From positions 5,704,001 through 5,768,000 of the forward strand of contig NZ_CP019420.1 of the NCBI RefSeq assembly GCF_001984215.1: a DNA stretch of 64,000 nucleotides, written 5' to 3'. Under the pieces are notes generated by a model that made no database searches, was not told where the DNA came from, and saw nothing but the letters and a program-made list of their open reading frames with translations. Origin of the DNA: Mycobacterium sp. MS1601. GTDB lineage: Bacteria; Actinomycetota; Actinomycetes; Mycobacteriales; Mycobacteriaceae. The position numbers and the translations under genes are program-made. Each line of letters starts with the position of its first letter. Position 1 is the stretch's first letter. Below, one piece after another: positions 38,793 to 50,164 of this stretch.

Positions 38793-39674
38793 ATGGCAAT
38801 CACAGAGCGGCCCGCCTGGGTCGATGACGAATTGTTCCCGTTCGCGAGCCAGTTCCTCGACATCGACGGGCACCGCGTGCATTACGTGGACGAAGGCGCG
38901 GGTCCGACGTTGCTGTTCCTGCACGGGAACCCGACCTGGTCGTTTGACTACAGCGTGGTCATCACACACCTGAAAGCGGAGTTTCGTTGCATCGCAGTGG
39001 ATTACCCAGGATTCGGGCTTTCGACGGCAGCGCCGGGCTACCGGTACCTACCCACCGAACACGCAGAGATCGTCGGTCGGTTTGTGGAGATGCTCGGGTT
39101 GAGAAACGTCACGCTGGTGGGCCATGACTGGGGCGGACCGATCGGGCTGGCCGTCGCGCAACAGCGCCCTGAAACCTTCGACCGGCTGGTTCTCACCAAC
39201 ACCTGGGCATGGCCGGTCAGCGACCCGCTCATACAAGTTATGTCGCACGTGATGGGCAGCCCCATCGGGCGGCTGCTCATCCGCCAACTCAACCTGTTCG
39301 TCAACCAGATGATCCCGATAGGACATCGTTTGACCACACCCACCAGCGCACAGATGGACCACTACCGCAACGCTCTCGACAGCCCCGCTCGCCGGGAGGG
39401 ATCGGCGGTGTTCCCCCGCGAGATCACCTCCAGCCGGGCATTTCTCGCCGACATCGAGGCGGGGCTCAAGGTTATGGAAGCATTGCCGACACTGATCATC
39501 TGGGGTGACGGCGACTTCGCCTTCGGTGACAAGGAACTGCGGCGATGGCAGCAAATCTTCACCGATAACGAGGCCGTCATCGTCAGCGGTGCCGGCCATT
39601 TCGTTCCCTCCGACGCTCCCGAGCAATTCGCCGCGGCGATCCGCCGCTGGCACAACCAACCTGGCTCCCGATGA
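38793..39674 (+). CDS. Haloalkane dehalogenase-like alpha/beta hydrolase
   Basis: The 293-residue enzyme has the dehalogenase pattern: HGNPTWSFDY with the halide-stabilising Asn, VGHDWGGP with nucleophile Asp followed by Trp (about residue 112), acid Asp in WGDGDFAF and catalytic His in GAGHFVPSDAPEQ. An Asp-Trp nucleophile with HGNPT distinguishes it from epoxide hydrolases. Family members hydrolyse carbon-halogen bonds to alcohols; natural substrates are often unknown. It is controlled, by position, by the divergent HxlR protein. Confidence 0.85.
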   Translation: MAITERPAWVDDELFPFASQFLDIDGHRVHYVDEGAGPTLLFLHGNPTWSFDYSVVITHLKAEFRCIAVDYPGFGLSTAAPGYRYLPTEHAEIVGRFVEMLGLRNVTLVGHDWGGPIGLAVAQQRPETFDRLVLTNTWAWPVSDPLIQVMSHVMGSPIGRLLIRQLNLFVNQMIPIGHRLTTPTSAQMDHYRNALDSPARREGSAVFPREITSSRAFLADIEAGLKVMEALPTLIIWGDGDFAFGDKELRRWQQIFTDNEAVIVSGAGHFVPSDAPEQFAAAIRRWHNQPGSR

Positions 39675-40837: not shown

Positions 40838-41086
40838 CTACCCGCCAGCAACTGGTGGCAGCACCGTGACTTCGGATGACGGACCGAGAGGTGTGATCAC
40901 TCCCGGTTCGGGCGGACTCCCGTCGACCCATACCCTCGAGATATTCAGAACTCGGGTAAATGGTTCGCCGAAACGCTCTGTCGCCGAGGTCATGAGCTCC
41001 TCGAGCGTCTGATCAGAGAAGTTGGCACGAGAGGTTCCGGCAACTTCGCGAGCCTTGCCGAACATCAGAAGAATGGGCAAGTTCAA
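40838..41086 (-). CDS. moaD: Molybdopterin synthase small subunit MoaD
   Basis: TTG 41086 overlaps the moaA stop. The 82-residue ubiquitin-like protein ends in the essential VLPPVAGG, whose C-terminal glycine becomes the thiocarboxylate that donates sulfur to precursor Z. LLMFGKAREVAGTSR is the usual MoaD N-terminal strand. It is the last of three genes, moaE-moaA-moaD. Confidence 0.9.
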   Translation of the reverse strand: MNLPILLMFGKAREVAGTSRANFSDQTLEELMTSATERFGEPFTRVLNISRVWVDGSPPEPGVITPLGPSSEVTVLPPVAGG

Positions 41087-42102
41087 CCTCCGATGAAGGA
41101 CATCTCGATTTTCTTGTGCGGACTGTTGTCTCCACCCGCACTCCTGAGTTCAGAGTATCGATCGCTACGCTGTGCCCACCGGGTCCGGATGGCTTGTTGG
41201 AGATCATCGTCACTACGTTGTCCGCGGACGATGCTTCGCAGGTCCAGTCCGGCTGTGGAGAACAGACAGGTGTGCAGTTGGCCGGTGGCGCTGAGCCGAG
41301 CGCGGGTGCAACTGCCACAGAACGGCTCTGTTACCGAAGCGATTACGCCGATCTCGCCAGAACCGTCGTGATAGCGGTAGCGGCGGGATACTTCACCGTC
41401 GTAGGACGGGGCTATGGCCTCCAGAGGCGTTTCTCGGTTGATCCGGGCGACGATCCAGTTCGCGTCAACAACCTGACCGCGGTCCCATCGGTTGGTCGTG
41501 CCGACATCCATGTATTCGATGAACCGAATGATGTGGCCGGTTCCGCGAAAGTACTGGGCCAGTTCGGCAATCAAGTGATCGTTGACTCCGAACTGAACAA
41601 CCACGTTGATCTTGATGCCCGCGAAACCGGCGCGATCGGCCGCCTCGATCCCTGCCAGGACATCCGCGACATGGAACCTACTGTCGGTCATGGCCCGAAA
41701 AGTAAGCTCATCGAGGGAATCCAGCGAGATGGTGAGCCGGTCCAGGCCAGCCGCCCGCAGATCCACAGCGTACTGTGACAACAACACTCCATTAGTGGTC
41801 ATCGCGAGGTCGACATCGGGTGCGGCACGACGCAGATCGGTTACCAGGTCCACGATTCCGTTGCGCAGCAGAGGTTCACCACCGGTCAGCCTTACCTTCT
41901 CGATACCGAGCACCAGGAACGCCGACACTATTTCGGTGATCTCCTCGAAGGCAAGAAGATCGTGTTGGGTAGCGAACCGATGCCCGCGTCCGAATGATTC
42001 GCGGGGCATACAGTATCGGCAGCGAAAATTGCAGCGATCGGTGACCGAGACTCGTAGGTCGCGGAGTCGGCGCCCTCTCGCGTCATACATCGGAGACGTC
42101 AT
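41083..42102 (-). CDS. moaA: GTP 3',8-cyclase MoaA
   Basis: The 339-residue radical SAM enzyme has the N-terminal cluster C24-x3-C28-x2-C31 (TDRCNFRCRYC), the GGEPLLR motif and the C-terminal cluster FCGSCTRARLSATGQLHTC, and ends in Gly-Gly as required for activity. It converts GTP to the first molybdenum cofactor intermediate together with MoaC, which is not encoded in this window. ATGA overlaps on both sides couple it to moaE and moaD. Confidence 0.95.
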   Translation of the reverse strand: MTSPMYDARGRRLRDLRVSVTDRCNFRCRYCMPRESFGRGHRFATQHDLLAFEEITEIVSAFLVLGIEKVRLTGGEPLLRNGIVDLVTDLRRAAPDVDLAMTTNGVLLSQYAVDLRAAGLDRLTISLDSLDELTFRAMTDSRFHVADVLAGIEAADRAGFAGIKINVVVQFGVNDHLIAELAQYFRGTGHIIRFIEYMDVGTTNRWDRGQVVDANWIVARINRETPLEAIAPSYDGEVSRRYRYHDGSGEIGVIASVTEPFCGSCTRARLSATGQLHTCLFSTAGLDLRSIVRGQRSDDDLQQAIRTRWAQRSDRYSELRSAGGDNSPHKKIEMSFIGG

Positions 42103-42650
42103 ATGGCCACTGTCTCACCGTTTGGGCAACGCCTCCGCCAACTGCCTACTGCCGTAGATACGGGCACGATGTCGGTCGTACATGCGCTCCAAGCCGTGGC
42201 GGAAGCACTGTGTTCGAGTTTCCAAACCGGCATAACCTGTTTGATCAGATCAATCATGAACTCGGCCGCCGCAAAAGCTGTGGCTCTGTGCGGTGCCGCA
42301 CAGCCTACAAGGACACTCGTTGCCCCCAGCGGTACGTCGCCGAAGCGGTGGAGCATCGAGACCTTCACAGCGTCGCTCCAGCGTGCGTGCGTGGCTGTCG
42401 CAATCTCAGAAAGTTGTCTCATGGCAAGACTGTGGTGCACCTCGTACCGAATTGACCGGACGTCCTGGTGCCCCGGCGAGTTCACTCGGACCGTTCCAGC
42501 GAAGATGACGACGGCTCCGCACGCTGGGTGTGTCAACCACTTCCGCACTTCAGTCTCTTGTATGGGCTCAGCTGTGAGCGCCAGCCAATCAGAGTCATCG
42601 CGGTGAATGGCACCAATGCACGATGTGTCGAGAGCATCGGCTTCAGCCAT
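42099..42650 (-). CDS. moaE: Molybdopterin synthase large subunit MoaE
   Basis: ATG 42650 after GGGAGG opens a 183-residue protein. GAVVIFAGTVR, MLHRFGDVPLG and MPVWKLEH with the catalytic Lys are MoaE hallmarks. The C-terminal extension beyond WKLEH (about 35 residues) is longer and more basic than usual. MoaE joins MoaD thiocarboxylate to precursor Z to make molybdopterin. Divergent from the histidine kinase at 42815. Confidence 0.9.
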   Translation of the reverse strand: MAEADALDTSCIGAIHRDDSDWLALTAEPIQETEVRKWLTHPACGAVVIFAGTVRVNSPGHQDVRSIRYEVHHSLAMRQLSEIATATHARWSDAVKVSMLHRFGDVPLGATSVLVGCAAPHRATAFAAAEFMIDLIKQVMPVWKLEHSASATAWSACTTDIVPVSTAVGSWRRRCPNGETVAI

Positions 42651-42814
42651 CTCGAACCTCCCAGGGACTGTGCGTTCAGCTGACCAGCTGCACGTTAACG
42701 ACGTAAGCACCTGGGCAGAACCTGCGAATGCTGGTCACCGAGTGATCGCGGAAATGCGAGCACCACCCTCTAGGGATAGTCTGCAGCCCGGGATTTGTCG
42801 TGGAGGAGGTTGTC
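42651..42814. promoter_or_regulatory. Divergent promoter region of moaEAD and the redox operon
   Basis: This 164-bp spacer must carry both promoters of the Mo island. A short palindrome CGTTAACG lies inside it and is a candidate binding site for the locally encoded response regulator. This is positional inference. Confidence 0.4.
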
Positions 42815-43999
42815 GTGTGCTACGGCATTGAGGACATCGAGGACGTCAGGGCTTTGGCGAAATCGGTCCGCGATATGACTCGACTCAGTGATCCGGACGC
42901 CTTGTTCATGCGCATCTGCCGCGCGGTTCTCGAATTGACGGATTTTTCCTGGACCGTACTTGGCCTGGTCGACCACGATGACGCGATTCGACCGGTGGCA
43001 GCCTTAGGTCACGCGCAACGATACGTCGACACGGTGGTTCCATGGGGTGAAGGTCTCGGCGGATCTGCTGTCCGCGAAAGGGAGTCGCAGCTCTGTGATG
43101 GCGGGTGGGCTGTCGAGAATGAAAACTTGACCCTGATCGAGCAATATCCAGGCTGCCGAGTCCCCGTGACCAGCCTCGAGCGGTTTGTTCCGCCGGAAGG
43201 TGCCGCCGTTGCCCACCCGATCGAGCATGCGGGAATGGTCGTCGCGATTCTCTACGCTGGCCGGGCTAGCTCCCTGCACAGGCACGAGCCGTTGGCCATG
43301 GTGTCGGAATTGGCCACTTTCATCGCGCCATTGATCGTGTCGGTGATCCGGGCATCGGACCTCGAAGTTCTTGCAAAGGCCGAGGAACGGCAACGTATCG
43401 TCCGTCATTTGCACGACACATCGCTGCAATTGCTCTTCAACATCTCCCTGGCTGCGCAACGACTGGCACGCGACCCTGTGCTCTCCCGGCAAAGCCGGGC
43501 TCTCGCCGTAACAATCAACGACGATGCGCGTTCGGCTAGTGCATGTCTGCGCAACACCTTTCGAGCGAACCTCCCGAGGGCCCGGAGCCTCGAAGTTGCC
43601 ATGCGTGAGCTGACCAAGGCGTTCACTACCAGGACGATGATTCCCGCCGAAGTGACTACTCTTGGCGCCCCACGCGAGTGCCCGGAGGCGGTGGACCGTG
43701 CGTTGCTGTCCACCGCCCGCGAAATCCTCCACAACATCGAAAAGCACGCACAGGCTAGGTCGGTAATGGTGGGATTGGCGTTTGGCGAATCCGACCTCAC
43801 ATTGGTCATCCAAGATGATGGCATCGGCCTGCAAAGTGACCACGCGACTCTAGCGCCACGATCGTCGGATTCGCCGGGACTGGGAATGCGGAACATGCAT
43901 GCAGTAGCCGCCACGGTGGGCGGACAGGTGCACTGGTCTGCAAACGAGGACGGCGGATTGACAACGCGAGTACAGGTGCCACTCAACGGCGTAGCGTGA
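42815..43999 (+). CDS. GAF-domain sensor histidine kinase (NarL-partner type)
   Basis: GTG 42815, after GGAGGAGG, is preferred over GTG 42800. The 394-residue soluble protein has an N-terminal GAF domain (about residues 25-180; VLGLVDHDD, VPWGEGLGGSAV), a HisKA_3 dimerisation box RIVRHLHDTSLQLLFN with the phospho-acceptor His near 200, and a HATPase_c domain (REILHNIEKHA, QDDGIG, GLGMRNM). It lacks membrane segments, so it senses an intracellular signal, perhaps redox or a small ligand bound by GAF. Partner: response regulator at 44369. Confidence 0.88.
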   Translation: MCYGIEDIEDVRALAKSVRDMTRLSDPDALFMRICRAVLELTDFSWTVLGLVDHDDAIRPVAALGHAQRYVDTVVPWGEGLGGSAVRERESQLCDGGWAVENENLTLIEQYPGCRVPVTSLERFVPPEGAAVAHPIEHAGMVVAILYAGRASSLHRHEPLAMVSELATFIAPLIVSVIRASDLEVLAKAEERQRIVRHLHDTSLQLLFNISLAAQRLARDPVLSRQSRALAVTINDDARSASACLRNTFRANLPRARSLEVAMRELTKAFTTRTMIPAEVTTLGAPRECPEAVDRALLSTAREILHNIEKHAQARSVMVGLAFGESDLTLVIQDDGIGLQSDHATLAPRSSDSPGLGMRNMHAVAATVGGQVHWSANEDGGLTTRVQVPLNGVA

Positions 44000-44078
44000 G
44001 CAGAGACCTCCGTTTGCGGGTGTCATCGAAGTTGGGAGGGCGCCACGATGAAGTGACTCCCAACGCAGAGGACCGCCC

Positions 44079-44372
44079 ATGCCTTATGTGATCACCAGCG
44101 GATGCCTGGACATCATGGACCGTAACTGTATGGACCAGTGCCCGGTTGACGCCATTTACGCCGGTCAACGAATGGCGTACATCCATCCCGACGAATGTAT
44201 CGATTGCGGAGCGTGCGTACCGGCTTGTCCGCAATCTGCGATCTTCCTTGCTGACCATGTTCCGGACGAGGAGCGACAGTTCGTCGAAATCAACTCAGAC
44301 GTGTTTGCTAGCGGAGTCATGCAAACCCCAGAGGGGCCCAACCCCGACCACCCGACGGTCGCGCACAAATGA
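44079..44372 (+). CDS. fdxA: Seven-iron (3Fe-4S/4Fe-4S) ferredoxin
   Basis: The 97-residue ferredoxin has Cys 9, 17 and 21 for the 3Fe-4S cluster and Cys 40-x2-43-x2-46-x3-50 for the 4Fe-4S cluster (DECIDCGACVPACP), as in mycobacterial FdxA. It lies between kinase and response regulator and overlaps the latter by 4 bp. Together with the FprA-type reductase at 48845 it would supply or accept electrons of the molybdenum enzyme. Confidence 0.9.
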   Translation: MPYVITSGCLDIMDRNCMDQCPVDAIYAGQRMAYIHPDECIDCGACVPACPQSAIFLADHVPDEERQFVEINSDVFASGVMQTPEGPNPDHPTVAHK

Positions 44373-45043
44373 CCCTTCAGGTGGCCACGATGAAAGCCCT
44401 CCGACCCACCCGGGTCGTGCTTGTCGACGACCATGCTGTTGTACTGCTCGGTGTCAAGGCCCTGGTCGACGATTCTCCCGATTTTCGCGTGGTCGGCGAA
44501 TTCTGCGACGGCACAAGCGCATTGAGGGGCATCAGTGAGCTACAACCCGACTTGGTGCTATTGGACTTACGACTTGGTAGCGAACTCGCCCCGGAGACCT
44601 GCAGGAGCATTCTTCGGGAATGTCCCGAGGCCAAGGTCGTGATCCTCACCGGTTTCATGGAAGCGCCACTGCTGCATGCTTGTTTGCACGAAGGTGCAGC
44701 CGGAGTTCTGTTGAAATCATCCGAGCAAGTCGATCTGCTGGACGGGATGCGACGGGTGATGCGCGGCGAATTGGCACTCGATCCACAACTCAGCCAGCAA
44801 GACAACGGCACATGCCACAGCGTTCGGGTGGAATCGCAGGGTGTACTGGTGGCCGAGTTGCGTGCCAGCGAGTACCGGGTACTTCGCCTTCTGGCACAAG
44901 GCTTCTCCACGGCACAGATCCAGAACGACTTGAATCTGTCGGCCAACACCGTCCGGTCTTACATTCAGGCAGTATTGGAAAAACTCGACGCCCACACCCG
45001 AGTACAAGCTGTGGTCAAAGCGCGTGCCCTGAACATACTTTGA
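44369..45043 (+). CDS. NarL/LuxR-family response regulator
   Basis: The receiver domain has acidic pair D20-D21 (VLVDDHAV), phospho-acceptor D66 (LVLLDLRLG) and the Lys of VLLKSSEQ near 115. The C-terminal LuxR helix-turn-helix is RASEYRVLRLLAQGFSTAQI then NLSANTVRSYIQAVLEKL. At 224 residues it is full length. Start ATG 44369 overlaps the ferredoxin stop. Cognate kinase at 42815; the likely targets are the two divergent Mo-island promoters. Confidence 0.9.
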   Translation: MTLQVATMKALRPTRVVLVDDHAVVLLGVKALVDDSPDFRVVGEFCDGTSALRGISELQPDLVLLDLRLGSELAPETCRSILRECPEAKVVILTGFMEAPLLHACLHEGAAGVLLKSSEQVDLLDGMRRVMRGELALDPQLSQQDNGTCHSVRVESQGVLVAELRASEYRVLRLLAQGFSTAQIQNDLNLSANTVRSYIQAVLEKLDAHTRVQAVVKARALNIL

Positions 45044-45065
45044 TGAATCAGGACTGTGAGTCCTG

Positions 45066-46241
45066 GTGAAATCACCTAGTCAGTACAGCCGCGAACTCTC
45101 GGGGTTGATACCCCGGTGCTCCGTCGAGAGTACGGACACCGGGGAGACTTTGGGCCGGGTTCTCGCGTCACCCGTGAGATCTCAAACCGATGTTCCTGCA
45201 TTCGACAACGCTGCGATGGACGGCTTCGCGGTCTCCGCGACCGTTGTCGCACAGTTGACGTATGGACCGGTCGATATTCGAGTCGTGTCCGAGGTTCCGG
45301 CTGGGGCCGAGCCCCCTTATGAGCCGGCCGGCTTCGATGCACATCAGACGATGACTGGCGGTCCTGTCCACCCACGCACCGCCGCGGTGATACCCGTCGA
45401 ACGCTCCAGCGGGTACGGTTCACCAGGCTCCATGGTGAGACTCGACGGCCAGCGCGTCACCGCAACAAACATCAGGCGTCAAGGTGAGGACGTCAAGGCC
45501 GGCCAGCAGCTTCTGGCCGGCGGCACCCTGATGACACCGGCTAAGCTGGCCGCGCTCAGCGCAGCTGGCCATGCACGCGCTCAGGTTATCGGCAAGCTCC
45601 GAACAGTCGTCGTCGCCTCGGGCAACGAACTCGTACCTGCTTCCTCGCTGCGTCGCCCCGGTCAAACATACGAATCGAACGCCGGGATGATCGCGGGTCT
45701 CCTGACCGACAGCGGATGCCAAGTCCGAGCGGTCGAGATCGTCGGTGATGATGTGCAGGATTTCCGCGCCACTTGCCGCCGCTACATCGAGGGCACAGAC
45801 CTTTTCGTCACCATTGGCGGCATCAGCGCGGGAACGCGTGAGGTGGTGCGTCAGTCCTTGTCCGAGGGAGTATTTCAACACATTGCTATGAGGCCGGGCG
45901 CTGCGCAGGGATTCGGCCATTTCGGTGACCGTCCGGTGATCTGTCTACCCGGCAACCCTGTCAGTGCTTTCGTGTCGTTCGTTGTGTTGGTGGAGGAATC
46001 CCTGCGGGCCAGGCACGGGCTGGCCGGGCGGCAGCGCACCTTCGTGAGGCTCATGGAGGATGCACCTGTCGAGTCGCACCGAGATGTTCTTCTGCTCGGC
46101 AGGAAAACGCCACAAGGCCGCATCGAAGCGCTCGGCCAGGGACGATCAGCCTCGATCAACGCGCTTGCCGGAGCCGATCACCTGGTCAAAGTGCCCGCGG
46201 GCCACTTCGGTCGATCCGGCTTCGAGGCATACCGACTGTAG
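45066..46241 (+). CDS. moeA: Molybdopterin molybdenumtransferase MoeA
   Basis: GTG 45066 gives a 391-residue protein with the MoeA pattern: FDNAAMDGFAV (substrate loop), MTGGPVHP, IRRQGEDVKAG, a MoCF domain with TIGGISAGTRE and the LPGNPVSAFVSF segment. MoeA inserts molybdate into adenylylated molybdopterin. It is 22 bp after the response regulator and upstream of the oxidoreductase, fitting a dedicated cofactor supply. Confidence 0.92.
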   Translation: MKSPSQYSRELSGLIPRCSVESTDTGETLGRVLASPVRSQTDVPAFDNAAMDGFAVSATVVAQLTYGPVDIRVVSEVPAGAEPPYEPAGFDAHQTMTGGPVHPRTAAVIPVERSSGYGSPGSMVRLDGQRVTATNIRRQGEDVKAGQQLLAGGTLMTPAKLAALSAAGHARAQVIGKLRTVVVASGNELVPASSLRRPGQTYESNAGMIAGLLTDSGCQVRAVEIVGDDVQDFRATCRRYIEGTDLFVTIGGISAGTREVVRQSLSEGVFQHIAMRPGAAQGFGHFGDRPVICLPGNPVSAFVSFVVLVEESLRARHGLAGRQRTFVRLMEDAPVESHRDVLLLGRKTPQGRIEALGQGRSASINALAGADHLVKVPAGHFGRSGFEAYRL

Positions 46242-46331
46242 CGCCATCAGACCTGCACCTGCGGGTGTGAACCGCATTGTTCGGGGCTGAGACTCTAACT
46301 CGAGACCAGCCCCTCCGACGAAAGGCCCTGA

Positions 46332-48446
46332 GTGGACATCGAAGCGCAGCGCTCGCTGACGGTCCTGGGATCGTGTCATCACGACTGCCCCGATACCTGT
46401 TCCGTCCTGACGACGGTGGTGGATGGCGTGGCTGTTGGTGTTCGAGGCAATCCTGCTCATCCCTTCACTCGCGGCGGGCTGTGCGCCAAGGTGAACGATT
46501 TCGAGAAACGCGTTTATCACCCTGAGAGGCTCAAGTACCCGATGAAGCGGACTGGCCCGAAGGGATCCGGCGAGTTTGCTCGAATCTCCTGGGACGAGGC
46601 CGTCGACACCATCTGCACTCGGTTCAAGCAAATCTCTGCCGACCACGGTTCCGAAGCAATTCTGCCGACCGGATATCTGGGCAACGAGCACATTCTCAAT
46701 GGGCTCAACGTGATGGACCCCTTCATGCATCGGCTTGGCGCGTCGGTAATCGAGCGAACCTTCTGCACGTCGGTTCGCGGACTCGCCTACAACCTCGTGT
46801 ACGGCCCAGCCGTCACCGACCCCGAAGGAATCGTCCACGCGAAGTACATCATCGCGTGGGGCCACAACCCGATGACGTCCAACATCCATCTGATGCCCTT
46901 CATAATCAAGGCACAGAAGGCCGGCGCAAAACTGGTGGTCATCGATCCGTACCGCAGTCGAACCGCGAAGCGTGCCGACTGGCACCTGCAAATCAAACCT
47001 GGCACCGACGGTGCACTGGCTCTCGGGTTGATGAACGTCATCATCAACGAAGGACTGACCGATGACGCCTTCATCAACGACCACACCGACGGCTTCGACG
47101 AGCTCGCCGAACGCGCCATGGCCTTTCCGCCTGAGCGCGTCGCAGCAATCACTGGGCTGACGGTCGAGGATGTCCAGACCCTGGCGCGCGAATACGCCAC
47201 CGCTGAATCGTCCAGTATCCGCGTCGGGACCGCGTTGGAGAACAAACGGCAGGGAGGTCAAACGTTCCGCTTGGTCTACTCCCTGCCAGCGCTAACCGGC
47301 GCCTGGCGCAAGCCTGGAGGAGGCACGCACGAACTGACCCTCTTCGAATTTCCCATTCAGTGGGATTTGCTTTCACAGGTGGAGTGGAGAAAGCCGAACC
47401 CGCAGACCGTCAACGGAATTCAGCTTGGTCGGGCACTGACAGGAGAGTTGCCGCTCGCCGTTCCGATCAAAGCTCTGATGGTCATGAATGGCAATCCGAT
47501 GGTGACGGTTCCCGAACAGGACAAGATCCGCGCAGGGCTGAGCCGCGAGGATCTGTTCACCGTCGTCTCCGACCACTTCATGACCGACACCGCTCGCTAT
47601 GCCGACATACTGCTCCCTGCGACCACGTTTCTCGAGCACTTCGACTTGGCGTTCTCTTGGGGGCATGTCTATCTCGGCGCCAATAATCCAGCGATCGATC
47701 CGGTGGGTGAGTCGGTGCCCAACGTCGAGGTTTTCCGGCGCCTGGCCAAAGGCATGGGATTTGACGACCCTTGGTTCTCACTAACCGACGAAGAGATGGC
47801 TCGGTTGGCGCTGAATTGGGCGGCACCCCAGCTTTCCGGCATCTCACTCGAGGAACTCCGCAAAACCGGATGGGCGCGGCTCAACGTCTCGGGCCCCGAT
47901 GAGGCACCCTTCGCCGCAGGCGGCTTCCCTACGCCGAATGGGAAGGCCCAATTGGCCACGCATGGCGTCGAGGACGGTGTTGCCGGGGTGTTCCGGCAAG
48001 GATACTCGGAAAACCAAGGCGGCAAAATGATTCCGGACGTTCCGGACTACCTGGAAGAACCGGTGTCGGAGCACTATCCGCTGCGCATGATTACGCCCCG
48101 AGGACACCACTTCATCAGTTCTCAATACGCGAACGTTGATCGACAGCGGTTGGCGGAAGGATGCCAGTCGGTCACGGTGAATCCAGAAACGGCGCAATCC
48201 CGTGGACTCCAGGCAGGACAGCAGGTGACTGTCTTCAACGAACTCGGGCGGTTCTCAGCAGAGTTGAAGATCGACGACTCGTTACAACGGGACACAGTCG
48301 TCGCGCCATACGGATTCTGGCCCTCCCGGAGTCTGGGCTCCAATACGGTTGCCGCAGTTATCTCCGCAGAACTCACCGACATAGGTCGCGGGGGGCTCTA
48401 TCAGGACGCCCGTGTCGACATCGAGGCAAACCCAGCGATGACCTGA
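46332..48446 (+). CDS. DMSO-reductase-family molybdopterin oxidoreductase
   Basis: The 704-residue protein begins with a 4Fe-4S motif, C15-x3-C19-x3-C23 and C51 (SCHHDCPDTC, GGLCAKV), followed by the molybdopterin domains (AWGHNPMTSNIHLMPF, VVIDPYRSRTAK, MNGNPMVT) and a C-terminal dinucleotide-binding domain (RMITPRGHHF, SVTVNPETAQSRGLQAGQQV). There is no twin-Arg leader, so it works in the cytoplasm. The Mo ligand should lie near TFCTSVRG (residues 143-150), where both Cys145 and Ser147 are candidates. It resembles the broad group annotated as formate dehydrogenase-like or BisC-like; the substrate is unknown. Neighbouring ferredoxin and FprA suggest NADPH/ferredoxin coupling. Confidence 0.88.
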   Translation: MDIEAQRSLTVLGSCHHDCPDTCSVLTTVVDGVAVGVRGNPAHPFTRGGLCAKVNDFEKRVYHPERLKYPMKRTGPKGSGEFARISWDEAVDTICTRFKQISADHGSEAILPTGYLGNEHILNGLNVMDPFMHRLGASVIERTFCTSVRGLAYNLVYGPAVTDPEGIVHAKYIIAWGHNPMTSNIHLMPFIIKAQKAGAKLVVIDPYRSRTAKRADWHLQIKPGTDGALALGLMNVIINEGLTDDAFINDHTDGFDELAERAMAFPPERVAAITGLTVEDVQTLAREYATAESSSIRVGTALENKRQGGQTFRLVYSLPALTGAWRKPGGGTHELTLFEFPIQWDLLSQVEWRKPNPQTVNGIQLGRALTGELPLAVPIKALMVMNGNPMVTVPEQDKIRAGLSREDLFTVVSDHFMTDTARYADILLPATTFLEHFDLAFSWGHVYLGANNPAIDPVGESVPNVEVFRRLAKGMGFDDPWFSLTDEEMARLALNWAAPQLSGISLEELRKTGWARLNVSGPDEAPFAAGGFPTPNGKAQLATHGVEDGVAGVFRQGYSENQGGKMIPDVPDYLEEPVSEHYPLRMITPRGHHFISSQYANVDRQRLAEGCQSVTVNPETAQSRGLQAGQQVTVFNELGRFSAELKIDDSLQRDTVVAPYGFWPSRSLGSNTVAAVISAELTDIGRGGLYQDARVDIEANPAMT

Positions 48447-48497
48447 TTCCCAAGTCCGTCAATTCCGCATCGACAAGTACAACCAGGAGAAGATCTC

Positions 48498-48845
48498 ATG
48501 ACTGAAGTTGCAGTGCCCGTGGACAGATCAGCTGTCGACGCTGATAGCTACGAACCATTCATCGTCGACGACGAAGCGGTTGGCGAGGTGCACTGGATTC
48601 GCAGGTCCGACATCGGCGGAAACGGTCTCACGGTGGGGTTGTGGCGCGCCGAACCAATGGAATTTGCGTACCCGTTCACCGAAGACGAGACAATCCACGT
48701 ACTCGAGGGGCGGGTCGAGATCACGCTCACAGCTGGGTCGACAATCGTGCTCGAGCCGGGCGACATCGCCTCGTTCGCCAAGGGCACTGACTCGACATGG
48801 AAAATCGTCACGGCGTTCAAAAAACTCTTCGTCAGCATTGGCTGA
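48498..48845 (+). CDS. Cupin-domain protein (DUF861-like)
   Basis: This 115-residue single cupin carries FAYPFTEDETIHVLEGRVEI and LEPGDIASFAKGTDSTWKI, which fit the (S)-ureidoglycine aminohydrolase-type cupin group (DUF861). Metal ligands of the first cupin motif are reduced (Glu and His present). It sits 51 bp after the oxidoreductase and overlaps the FprA gene by one base, so it belongs to the operon. It could process the product of the Mo enzyme or act as a ligand-binding protein. Confidence 0.85.
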   Translation: MTEVAVPVDRSAVDADSYEPFIVDDEAVGEVHWIRRSDIGGNGLTVGLWRAEPMEFAYPFTEDETIHVLEGRVEITLTAGSTIVLEPGDIASFAKGTDSTWKIVTAFKKLFVSIG

Positions 48846-50164
48846 TGGCGCCACCCAGTGACATGAGTGGGTCCGTCCACCATATTGCAGTGGTGGGCGC
48901 TGGGCCCTCCGGCCTGTTCACAGTAGCGGAGATCTCACGACGGGCGCCCAGCTTCCTGATCGACGTCTATGACCGTGATCCGACCCCGTTCGGGTTACTA
49001 CGGCACGGCGTTGCTCCAGATCATCTGAAGATCAAGTCGTTGGCAGGATCATTTGAAAAGACGTTGCGTTTGCCGAACGTACAGTTCTTCGGAAACATCT
49101 TGGTAGGCGACAGGATTCAGTTCGAGGAACTTCTCGATGCCTACGATGCGGTGATCGTAGCGACGGGAGCGGGCACCACGAAAGTACTGTCGGTTGACGG
49201 CATCGACTTGGCCATACCGGCAAGCGATGTAGTGCACTGGTACAACGGTCATCCCGACGGCCCCGCCGTGGCACCGCTCGATCTGCCCGTCACGCACGCC
49301 ACCATCATCGGTGGCGGGAACGTCGCACTGGATGTGGGCCGGATATTGTTGAAAGGTTCCGAAGGGCTGGCACATACAGACATGACTGCCACTGCGCTGT
49401 CCGCCTTGAGCGGCGGCGCTCAGAACGTCACGCTGCTCATCCGAGGCGGCATAGCGCAGGCCAAGTTCACACTCGCCGAACTCCTCGAGTTCGACAATCT
49501 CGACGGGGTGGCGCCAGTGGTCGACGGCGACGACATCCGGATCTCAAGCGAAGAAGAGGCGCTTATCGCAGCATCACCCCACCTCAAGCAAACCGTTGAC
49601 GTACTGACGAACTGGGCTTCGCGGCCGCGCTGCCGACATCCGCGAAGGGTGCACTTTCGGTTCTACTCGACTCCACAGCGCGTGGTGGGCCGATATCGCG
49701 AAGTCGAGGCCATCGATGTGTTGCGAACAGATGGCCAAGCAGGCTATCGGCTCAACACGCACGCAGTGATCTCGGCCGCCGGTTACCGAACAAGGGGTCT
49801 GGCCGGGGTTCCGTTTGATGAAGTGGCCAACCATGTCCCGAATGAAGCCTCACGCGTCACCGGTCTGCCGCGGGTCTACGTCGTCGGTTGGGCCAAACGT
49901 GGGCCACGCGGGGTCATCGGGACAAACAAGGCGTGCGCCCGCAACACCGTCGACGCCCTCTTCAAAGACATAGAGATGGGGTTGGTGGTGCCTAGAACAC
50001 TGTGCCGACGACCCTTTCGCGACACTTCGAGCCTCGGCGCCGTGACTGCTGAAGCATGGTCTCGAATTGACCAACACGAGATCGCCACAGGCAGGGCGCA
50101 AGGCCGGGCACGTGCCAAGATCGGGTCACGACGCGATCTGCTTGAGATTGCCGGCGTTCTATAG
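48845..50164 (+). CDS. Ferredoxin-NADP+ reductase, FprA type
   Basis: ATG 48845 overlaps the cupin stop. The about 439-residue flavoprotein has an N-terminal FAD motif VVGAGPSGLFTVAEI, the FprA/adrenodoxin-reductase signature FGLLRHGVAPDHLKIK, an NADP motif IIGGGNVALDVGRIL and the C-terminal VVGWAKRGPRGVIGTNK. FprA proteins pass electrons between NADPH and the 7Fe ferredoxin, which is also encoded in this operon. A later start at ATG 48863 is possible. Confidence 0.92.
   Translation: MAPPSDMSGSVHHIAVVGAGPSGLFTVAEISRRAPSFLIDVYDRDPTPFGLLRHGVAPDHLKIKSLAGSFEKTLRLPNVQFFGNILVGDRIQFEELLDAYDAVIVATGAGTTKVLSVDGIDLAIPASDVVHWYNGHPDGPAVAPLDLPVTHATIIGGGNVALDVGRILLKGSEGLAHTDMTATALSALSGGAQNVTLLIRGGIAQAKFTLAELLEFDNLDGVAPVVDGDDIRISSEEEALIAASPHLKQTVDVLTNWASRPRCRHPRRVHFRFYSTPQRVVGRYREVEAIDVLRTDGQAGYRLNTHAVISAAGYRTRGLAGVPFDEVANHVPNEASRVTGLPRVYVVGWAKRGPRGVIGTNKACARNTVDALFKDIEMGLVVPRTLCRRPFRDTSSLGAVTAEAWSRIDQHEIATGRAQGRARAKIGSRRDLLEIAGVL

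Follow-up and report, generated by a model that had tools for sequence, protein, structure and literature searches.

What is the function of a compact block of ten genes in Mycobacterium sp. MS1601, in which a molybdenum enzyme is accompanied by genes for cofactor synthesis, electron carriers and a two-component system? The DNA examined, hereafter the window, is a stretch of 64,000 nucleotides (nt), C1:5704001-5768000 of the 6.83-Mb genome, and the block, hereafter the island, occupies its positions 40838 to 50164. An initial annotation of the window had described the island as a self-contained molybdenum system with its own cofactor genes and two-component pair, and this description is borne out by the gene content and by recurrence in other genomes. 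With moderate confidence, we read the island as a horizontally acquired, self-sufficient module under two-component control, built around a ferredoxin-driven molybdenum reductase.

Gene content and composition of the island

All ten open reading frames (ORFs) were found open at the positions given by the initial annotation, and profile searches agreed with the families it had named. The genes moaE-moaA-moaD are read leftward, and kinase, ferredoxin, regulator, moeA, MopB enzyme, cupin and FprA rightward:

40838..50164, no strand: whole island; GC 60.0%, the lowest-GC 9.3-kb stretch in the window
40838..41086, minus strand: moaD, small subunit of molybdopterin synthase; PF02597 (ThiS family) 23.7 bits, cut-off 22.5; TIGR01682 below its cut-off
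41083..42102, minus strand: moaA, GTP 3',8-cyclase; TIGR02666 364 bits, equivalog cut-off 284
42099..42710, minus strand: moaE; PF02391 5.2e-31
42815..43999, plus strand: cytoplasmic sensor histidine kinase with a GAF-like N-terminal part; HisKA_3 and HATPase_c above cut-off
44079..44372, plus strand: 7Fe-type ferredoxin; FdxA_Actino NF045480 115.7 bits, cut-off 125; Fer4 above cut-off
44369..45043, plus strand: NarL/LuxR-type response regulator, receiver and LuxR helix-turn-helix; PF00072 and PF00196 above cut-off
45066..46241, plus strand: moeA, molybdotransferase; PF03453 and PF00994 above cut-off; NF050098 292 bits, cut-off 560
46332..48446, plus strand: MopB enzyme of 704 amino acids (aa), predicted to carry molybdenum (Mo) in a bis-pyranopterin guanine dinucleotide (bis-PGD) cofactor; PF04879, PF00384, PF01568; cluster cysteines C15, C19, C23 and C51; predicted Mo ligand C145
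48498..48845, plus strand: DUF861 cupin (Cupin_3), 115 aa; PF05899 56.5 bits, cut-off 23.5
48845..50164, plus strand: FprA-type NADPH:ferredoxin reductase; best solved relative 1lqt (FprA), 1.1e-81

The GC content is 64.7% in the rest of the window and 63.0% in its next lowest non-overlapping stretch, and in the GC profile the drop coincides exactly with the ten-gene block. The ferredoxin has the cysteine pattern CX7CX3C and CX2CX2CX3CP, as read from its sequence. The reductase matches 1lqt_A over its full length (residues 12-435 of 439) and is of the true FprA/adrenodoxin-reductase kind. Since a second moaA (38% identical to that of the island) and three further FprA homologues (42, 35 and 36% identity) are present elsewhere in the genome, the island duplicates functions of its host.

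Several gene starts could be refined. The kinase ORF opens at 42800, and its start is probably the GTG at 42815, which is preceded by GGAGGAGG; this start gives the segment M/V-C-Y...I-E/D-D-V-R that is common to seven related kinases in an alignment, and an N-terminal Cys-Tyr start was seen in all eight aligned kinases. FprA probably starts at the ATG at 48845, with a one-base overlap with the cupin stop, and not at 48797, where its ORF also opens. For moaE the start may be the ATG at 42650. It had been stated that most of the genes are joined by overlapping stops and starts; overlaps do occur, but at only four of the eight same-strand junctions (moaE/moaA, moaA/moaD and ferredoxin/regulator, 4 nt each, and cupin/FprA), the other four being gaps of 79, 22, 90 and 51 nt. 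A search of the intergenic stretches of the island for a shared regulator site gave nothing beyond a single 9-nt match, between 44015 and 46260, and a single near-palindrome at 42673.

Recurrence of the gene neighbourhood

The neighbourhood comparison covered 67 loci (66 fetched loci and the window), with partner genes counted within 8 kb, plus six loci fetched for the cupin. Seven of 75 genome-contig loci, none longer than 6,000 bases, were excluded, and among plasmids the surroundings were viewed for 6 of the 59 records with a match. It was found that a ferredoxin gene lies within 8 kb of the MopB gene at 23 of the 67 loci, and a reductase gene is present at every one of these 23, of FprA type at six (the window included) and thioredoxin-reductase-like at 17. 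At least one Mo-cofactor gene was found within the same distance at 20 of the 67. The initial annotation had considered NADPH-FprA-ferredoxin-Mo enzyme a plausible electron chain. A chain from reductase through ferredoxin to Mo is well supported by these gene neighbourhoods, because all ferredoxin-bearing loci also have a reductase, and it is strengthened by the fact that two different flavoprotein reductases adjoin the same enzyme-ferredoxin pair in different lineages.

The initial annotation had also named, beforehand, absence of the neighbourhood from every other genome as the result that would speak against it; conservation was found at a locus in another genus of the family (L133), in Pseudonocardia and at other loci. 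L133 has all ten gene families, rearranged and with identities to the window of 34-59%. There, cupin, kinase, regulator, FprA, ferredoxin, moaE and moaD stand in a row, MopB and moaA point away, and moeA lies further off behind a UvrA-like ORF (named by eye). The island moaA is 55-59% identical to moaA of L133 and of the ferredoxin-type loci. A cupin match was found in 7 of 62 Pseudonocardia genomes, six at 55-60% identity and the seventh at 41%. In all six with a cupin of at least 55%, the cupin gene is located within 450 bases of the MopB match and kinase and regulator are present, with a moeA match in four; no ferredoxin or FprA match was found at these six loci, and MopB was not near the cupin of the seventh genome. 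In the genus of the window a cupin match was obtained in 2 of 294 genomes, its own and G033 (51% and 34%), and no MopB was seen at the G033 hits, both of which lie near contig ends. As judged from gene order, the tie of the cupin to this MopB enzyme by recurrent adjacency is real.

Related operons are also carried by plasmids of Allorhizobium ampelinum S4, Agrobacterium tumefaciens 15-1187-1-2a, Methylophaga pinxianii and Thioclava, which represent three proteobacterial orders. All four have MopB, ferredoxin and a flavin adenine dinucleotide (FAD) reductase 28-37% identical to the FprA of the window, followed by moaA in three and by moeA/glp in one, and an AraC gene lies upstream in three of the four. 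The plasmid moaA is 35-38% identical to the island moaA, no more than the second moaA of the host is, which suggests that recruitment of cofactor genes took place more than once. On Thioclava plasmid p4 (L206) the MopB-ferredoxin-reductase-glp operon is located between two IS6-family transposase genes, like a composite mobile unit. Neither a ferredoxin nor a reductase match accompanies the plasmid copies of Bradyrhizobium CB82 and Streptomyces NBC_01216.

Another arrangement, consisting of MopB, ferredoxin, a thioredoxin-reductase-like flavoprotein and AraC, was seen in Rhodococcus, Nakamurella flava, some Pseudonocardia and others, and in Rhodococcus and two other genera it is followed by moaE, moaA, moaD and moeA in varying completeness. 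The kinase and regulator at the Rhodococcus loci were not counted as island partners; the kinase is about 27% identical and the pair stands beside mno-like alcohol-dehydrogenase genes (named by eye), and it is more likely a pair of the MnoSR type (PMC11303327). At numerous other loci, an AraC gene is the sole partner of MopB. One locus (L149) has no ferredoxin match and an FprA-like match 7 kb away. A ferredoxin match was absent from all of the 68 loci of more distant relatives (identity mostly 35-43%, many of the loci short), while the thioredoxin-reductase-like protein and a regulator were each matched once.

It should be noted that this version of the enzyme is rare. A MopB match was obtained in 17 of 297 genomes of the genus (E up to 1e-150), 19 of 397 of the order (1e-150) and 17 of 401 of the family (1e-200), in overlapping sets that each include the own genome. 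At the threshold used, the counts were 1 of 59 for the genus of G941, 42 of 62 for Pseudonocardia (the genus of G465) and 9 of 37 for Rhodococcus (the genus of G863). No copy besides that of the window was more than 54% identical in the genomes searched. Two protein searches gave at least 8,000 candidates each, near and distant relatives together, and the matches listed in one of them include at least 20 protein clusters at 57-72% identity (P0002-P0020 and P0022), those named being from Rhodococcus, Pseudonocardia and a metagenome-assembled genome (MAG) of Sporichthyaceae. A further member of the family (48% identity) is encoded in the same genome at C1:6248368. In a tree of 119 chosen sequences, from which frames of up to 550 aa had been dropped and whose deep supports are weak (down to 0.09), the enzyme groups with P0002 and P0003. 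This rare clade joins, with support 0.59, a group to which the Mycobacterium paralogues, L133, three Pseudonocardia cupin loci and the Methylophaga copy belong; the other proteobacterial copies join next with weak support. AraC-only loci and thioredoxin-reductase-like loci are placed elsewhere, and therefore ferredoxin-FprA pairs appear on the side of the window and the thioredoxin-reductase-like protein on the opposite one.

The molybdoenzyme and the direction of electron flow

The three domains of the enzyme score above their cut-offs (PF04879, Molybdop_Fe4S4, 34.8 bits; PF00384, Molybdopterin, 165.6; PF01568, Molydop_binding, 65.7), and by its sequence it is a member of the MopB or dimethyl sulfoxide reductase superfamily, within a soluble, cysteine-ligated subfamily. 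The fold was predicted with a local distance difference test score of 91.3, and the enzyme would be expected to bind Mo- or tungsten-bis-PGD. The metal ligand had initially been thought unusual, with Cys145 or Ser147 as candidates, and this view is not supported. Cys145 is invariant in 54 of 54 aligned family members and Ser147 is present in 50 of 54; Cys145 also aligns with the ligand cysteines of acetylene hydratase (Cys141), polysulfide reductase and the FdhF subunit of hydrogen-dependent carbon dioxide reductase (HDCR). By alignment the ligand is Cys145, and it is not unusual because it is invariant and matches known cysteine ligands. The fold comparison singles out no function, as formate dehydrogenase (FDH), Nap, perchlorate reductase and acetylene hydratase are separated by no more than about 3.5 Z units.

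In the module that we favour, the cytoplasmic histidine kinase and the NarL-type regulator would switch the island on upon a signal, and MoaA, MoaE, MoaD and MoeA would add to the Mo-cofactor supply of the host. Electrons could pass from NADPH through the FprA-type flavoprotein and the 7Fe ferredoxin to the Fe4S4 cluster of the enzyme and on to the Cys145-bound Mo, where a small cytoplasmic substrate would be reduced. The cupin could be handling substrate or product, or could be a small accessory protein. The mycobacterial FprA-ferredoxin-P450 chains use the same reductase family (1lqt) and ferredoxin class, but the partner in the island is a molybdoenzyme and not a P450. Several observations weigh against this proposal. 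The loci entered the comparison as similarity hits to this enzyme, several to a genus, and for some the retrieval was prompted by a ferredoxin on a short piece, so the sample is biased. At 44 of the 67 loci there is no ferredoxin gene within 8 kb, among them the six cupin loci of Pseudonocardia and the 15 loci of Mycobacterium paralogues (L152-L166), the latter having none of the partners; therefore either the enzyme draws on a ferredoxin of the host at such loci or the chain is not general. FprA is also able to run towards NADP+. In addition, the protein that the initial annotation called a GAF-kinase is a kinase by its HisKA_3 and HATPase domains, but its GAF assignment falls short of the Pfam cut-off (GAF_2, 22.2 bits against 28.6).

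The same parts could also run in the opposite direction, with the MopB enzyme acting as a dehydrogenase: a small substrate would be oxidised, and the electrons would go through ferredoxin and reductase to NADP+. Sequence and fold are close to those of the cytoplasmic FDHs and ferredoxin reductases are reversible in general; however, FprA-type enzymes usually run from NADPH to ferredoxin and the hosts seem to be aerobes with other oxidants at hand, and we regard this direction as rather unlikely. An FDH proper is the least probable of the alternatives, although both fold and profile resemble those of FdhF-type enzymes. The ligand is followed directly by Thr146, at a position that is His in HDCR FdhF; across the family, 52 of 54 members have Asp, Thr, Ser, Gly or Ile there, and His is not among the five commonest residues. 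Compared with E. coli FdhF and HDCR FdhF (PDB 1fdi and 7qv7), the enzyme also lacks the RGQNNVQG loop, an insertion in these two FDHs relative to the family, whose Arg presumably has a functional role, and TIGR01591 gives 272 bits against a cut-off of 666. We also think it very improbable that the enzyme is a hydratase like acetylene hydratase, dependent on Mo and tolerant of air, with the reductase chain serving only to keep the metal reduced. Acetylene hydratase is the best single PDB match (1.4e-49), tied with HDCR FdhF (2.5e-49), but HDCR FdhF scores higher when the family profile is used instead of the single sequence. Asp13 of acetylene hydratase (PDB 2e7z), next to the second cluster cysteine, which we take to be catalytic and essential, falls on Pro20, itself invariant in 54 of 54 members. 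The island differs further in the CX3CX3C spacing of the cluster cysteines and in having FprA, 7Fe ferredoxin, cupin and cofactor genes as partners, and no aldehyde-dehydrogenase gene was recognised in it. A variant to which we give the same slight chance is such a hydratase, for example an aerobic acetylene hydratase of mycobacteria and rhodococci, in which NADPH-FprA-ferredoxin would hold Mo in its reduced, catalytic state in air instead of driving a net reduction, and Asp18 or Asp21, invariant acids of the family, would replace Asp13. According to PMC7858054, the acetylene hydratase of R. opacus is Mo-dependent, Fe-S protein genes adjoin nearly all acetylene hydratase genes, and no acetylene hydratase from aerobic acetylenotrophs had been characterised.

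A fortuitous grouping of redox and Mo genes that share no function could account for the gene order that varies by lineage and for the many relatives with an AraC gene only or no partners. On the other hand, the same ten families are found at L133, the cupin is beside MopB in six of six cases and the operon occurs on plasmids of three proteobacterial orders. Since the gene set recurs across genera and phyla and forms the lowest-GC 9.3-kb block of the window, it appears to be more than chance, to which we give even less probability than to the hydratase. Three known enzymes were considered and rejected. Assimilatory nitrate reductases (NarB/NasA/NasC) are, like the island enzyme, cytoplasmic with one Fe4S4 cluster and a Cys ligand, and cyanobacterial NarB takes electrons from ferredoxin; unlike in those systems, there is no nitrite reductase gene in the island, and the NasC model NF047855 gives 218 bits against a cut-off of 1100. 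An S- or N-oxide reductase (bisC_fam, TIGR00509) reaches 167 bits against 1017, with Cys where a Ser ligand is expected. Metallopterin ergothioneine synthase, as described in PMC9516567, has a MopB module related to acetylene hydratase, with a Cys ligand and a fused cysteine desulfurase, and that desulfurase domain is absent from the island.

The ferredoxin-driven reductase module would give a large group of molybdoenzymes, of which no characterised member was found, a candidate electron chain, a defined metal ligand and a list of partners. Because the enzyme-ferredoxin pair goes with either reductase and Mo-cofactor genes travel along in actinobacteria and proteobacteria, our data suggest that this reaction requires, in aerobes, a kit that is both complete and portable. 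As the system is soluble and has few components, direct expression and screening are feasible. The initial annotation had known of no characterised system with this gene set, and this still stands: the open-access literature, judged by titles and abstract openings, gave no description of the set and no characterised subfamily member, and the MopB lineage table of PMC10100899 names none like the island enzyme.

Surroundings of the island and distant relatives

An empty insertion site in relatives, sought through the PhoD-like neighbour on the right-hand side, was not shown; beyond the PhoD-like gene only weak matches were obtained, to the dehalogenase-like gene (25-28%) and to the regulator. 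No tRNA genes were found in the 64-kb window. Just to the left of the island, the ORF at 38793-39674 resembles a haloalkane-dehalogenase-type alpha/beta hydrolase (named by eye).

Some distant relatives stand in other settings. On the Streptomyces sp. NBC_01216 plasmid (L207, 9992-12061), a 39% relative lies among genes for dapF, a 2-oxoglutarate-Fe dioxygenase, an iron-containing redox enzyme, an aminotransferase and an ornithine cyclodeaminase, and these surroundings resemble a natural-product cluster. Three MAG contigs labelled Bifidobacterium breve (L016, L023 and L070) hold 38-43% relatives, and the label is doubtful. At L139 (8434-19078), a 48% MopB is followed by a molybdopterin oxidoreductase of 1242 aa (NarG-sized, by Pfam), and the ORFs beyond it resemble, by eye, the rest of a nar operon and a major facilitator superfamily (MFS) transporter. 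P0152 from Pseudofrankia, named as an MFS transporter, combines MopB and MFS domains in one chain of 944 aa, which could be a real fusion or an annotation artefact.

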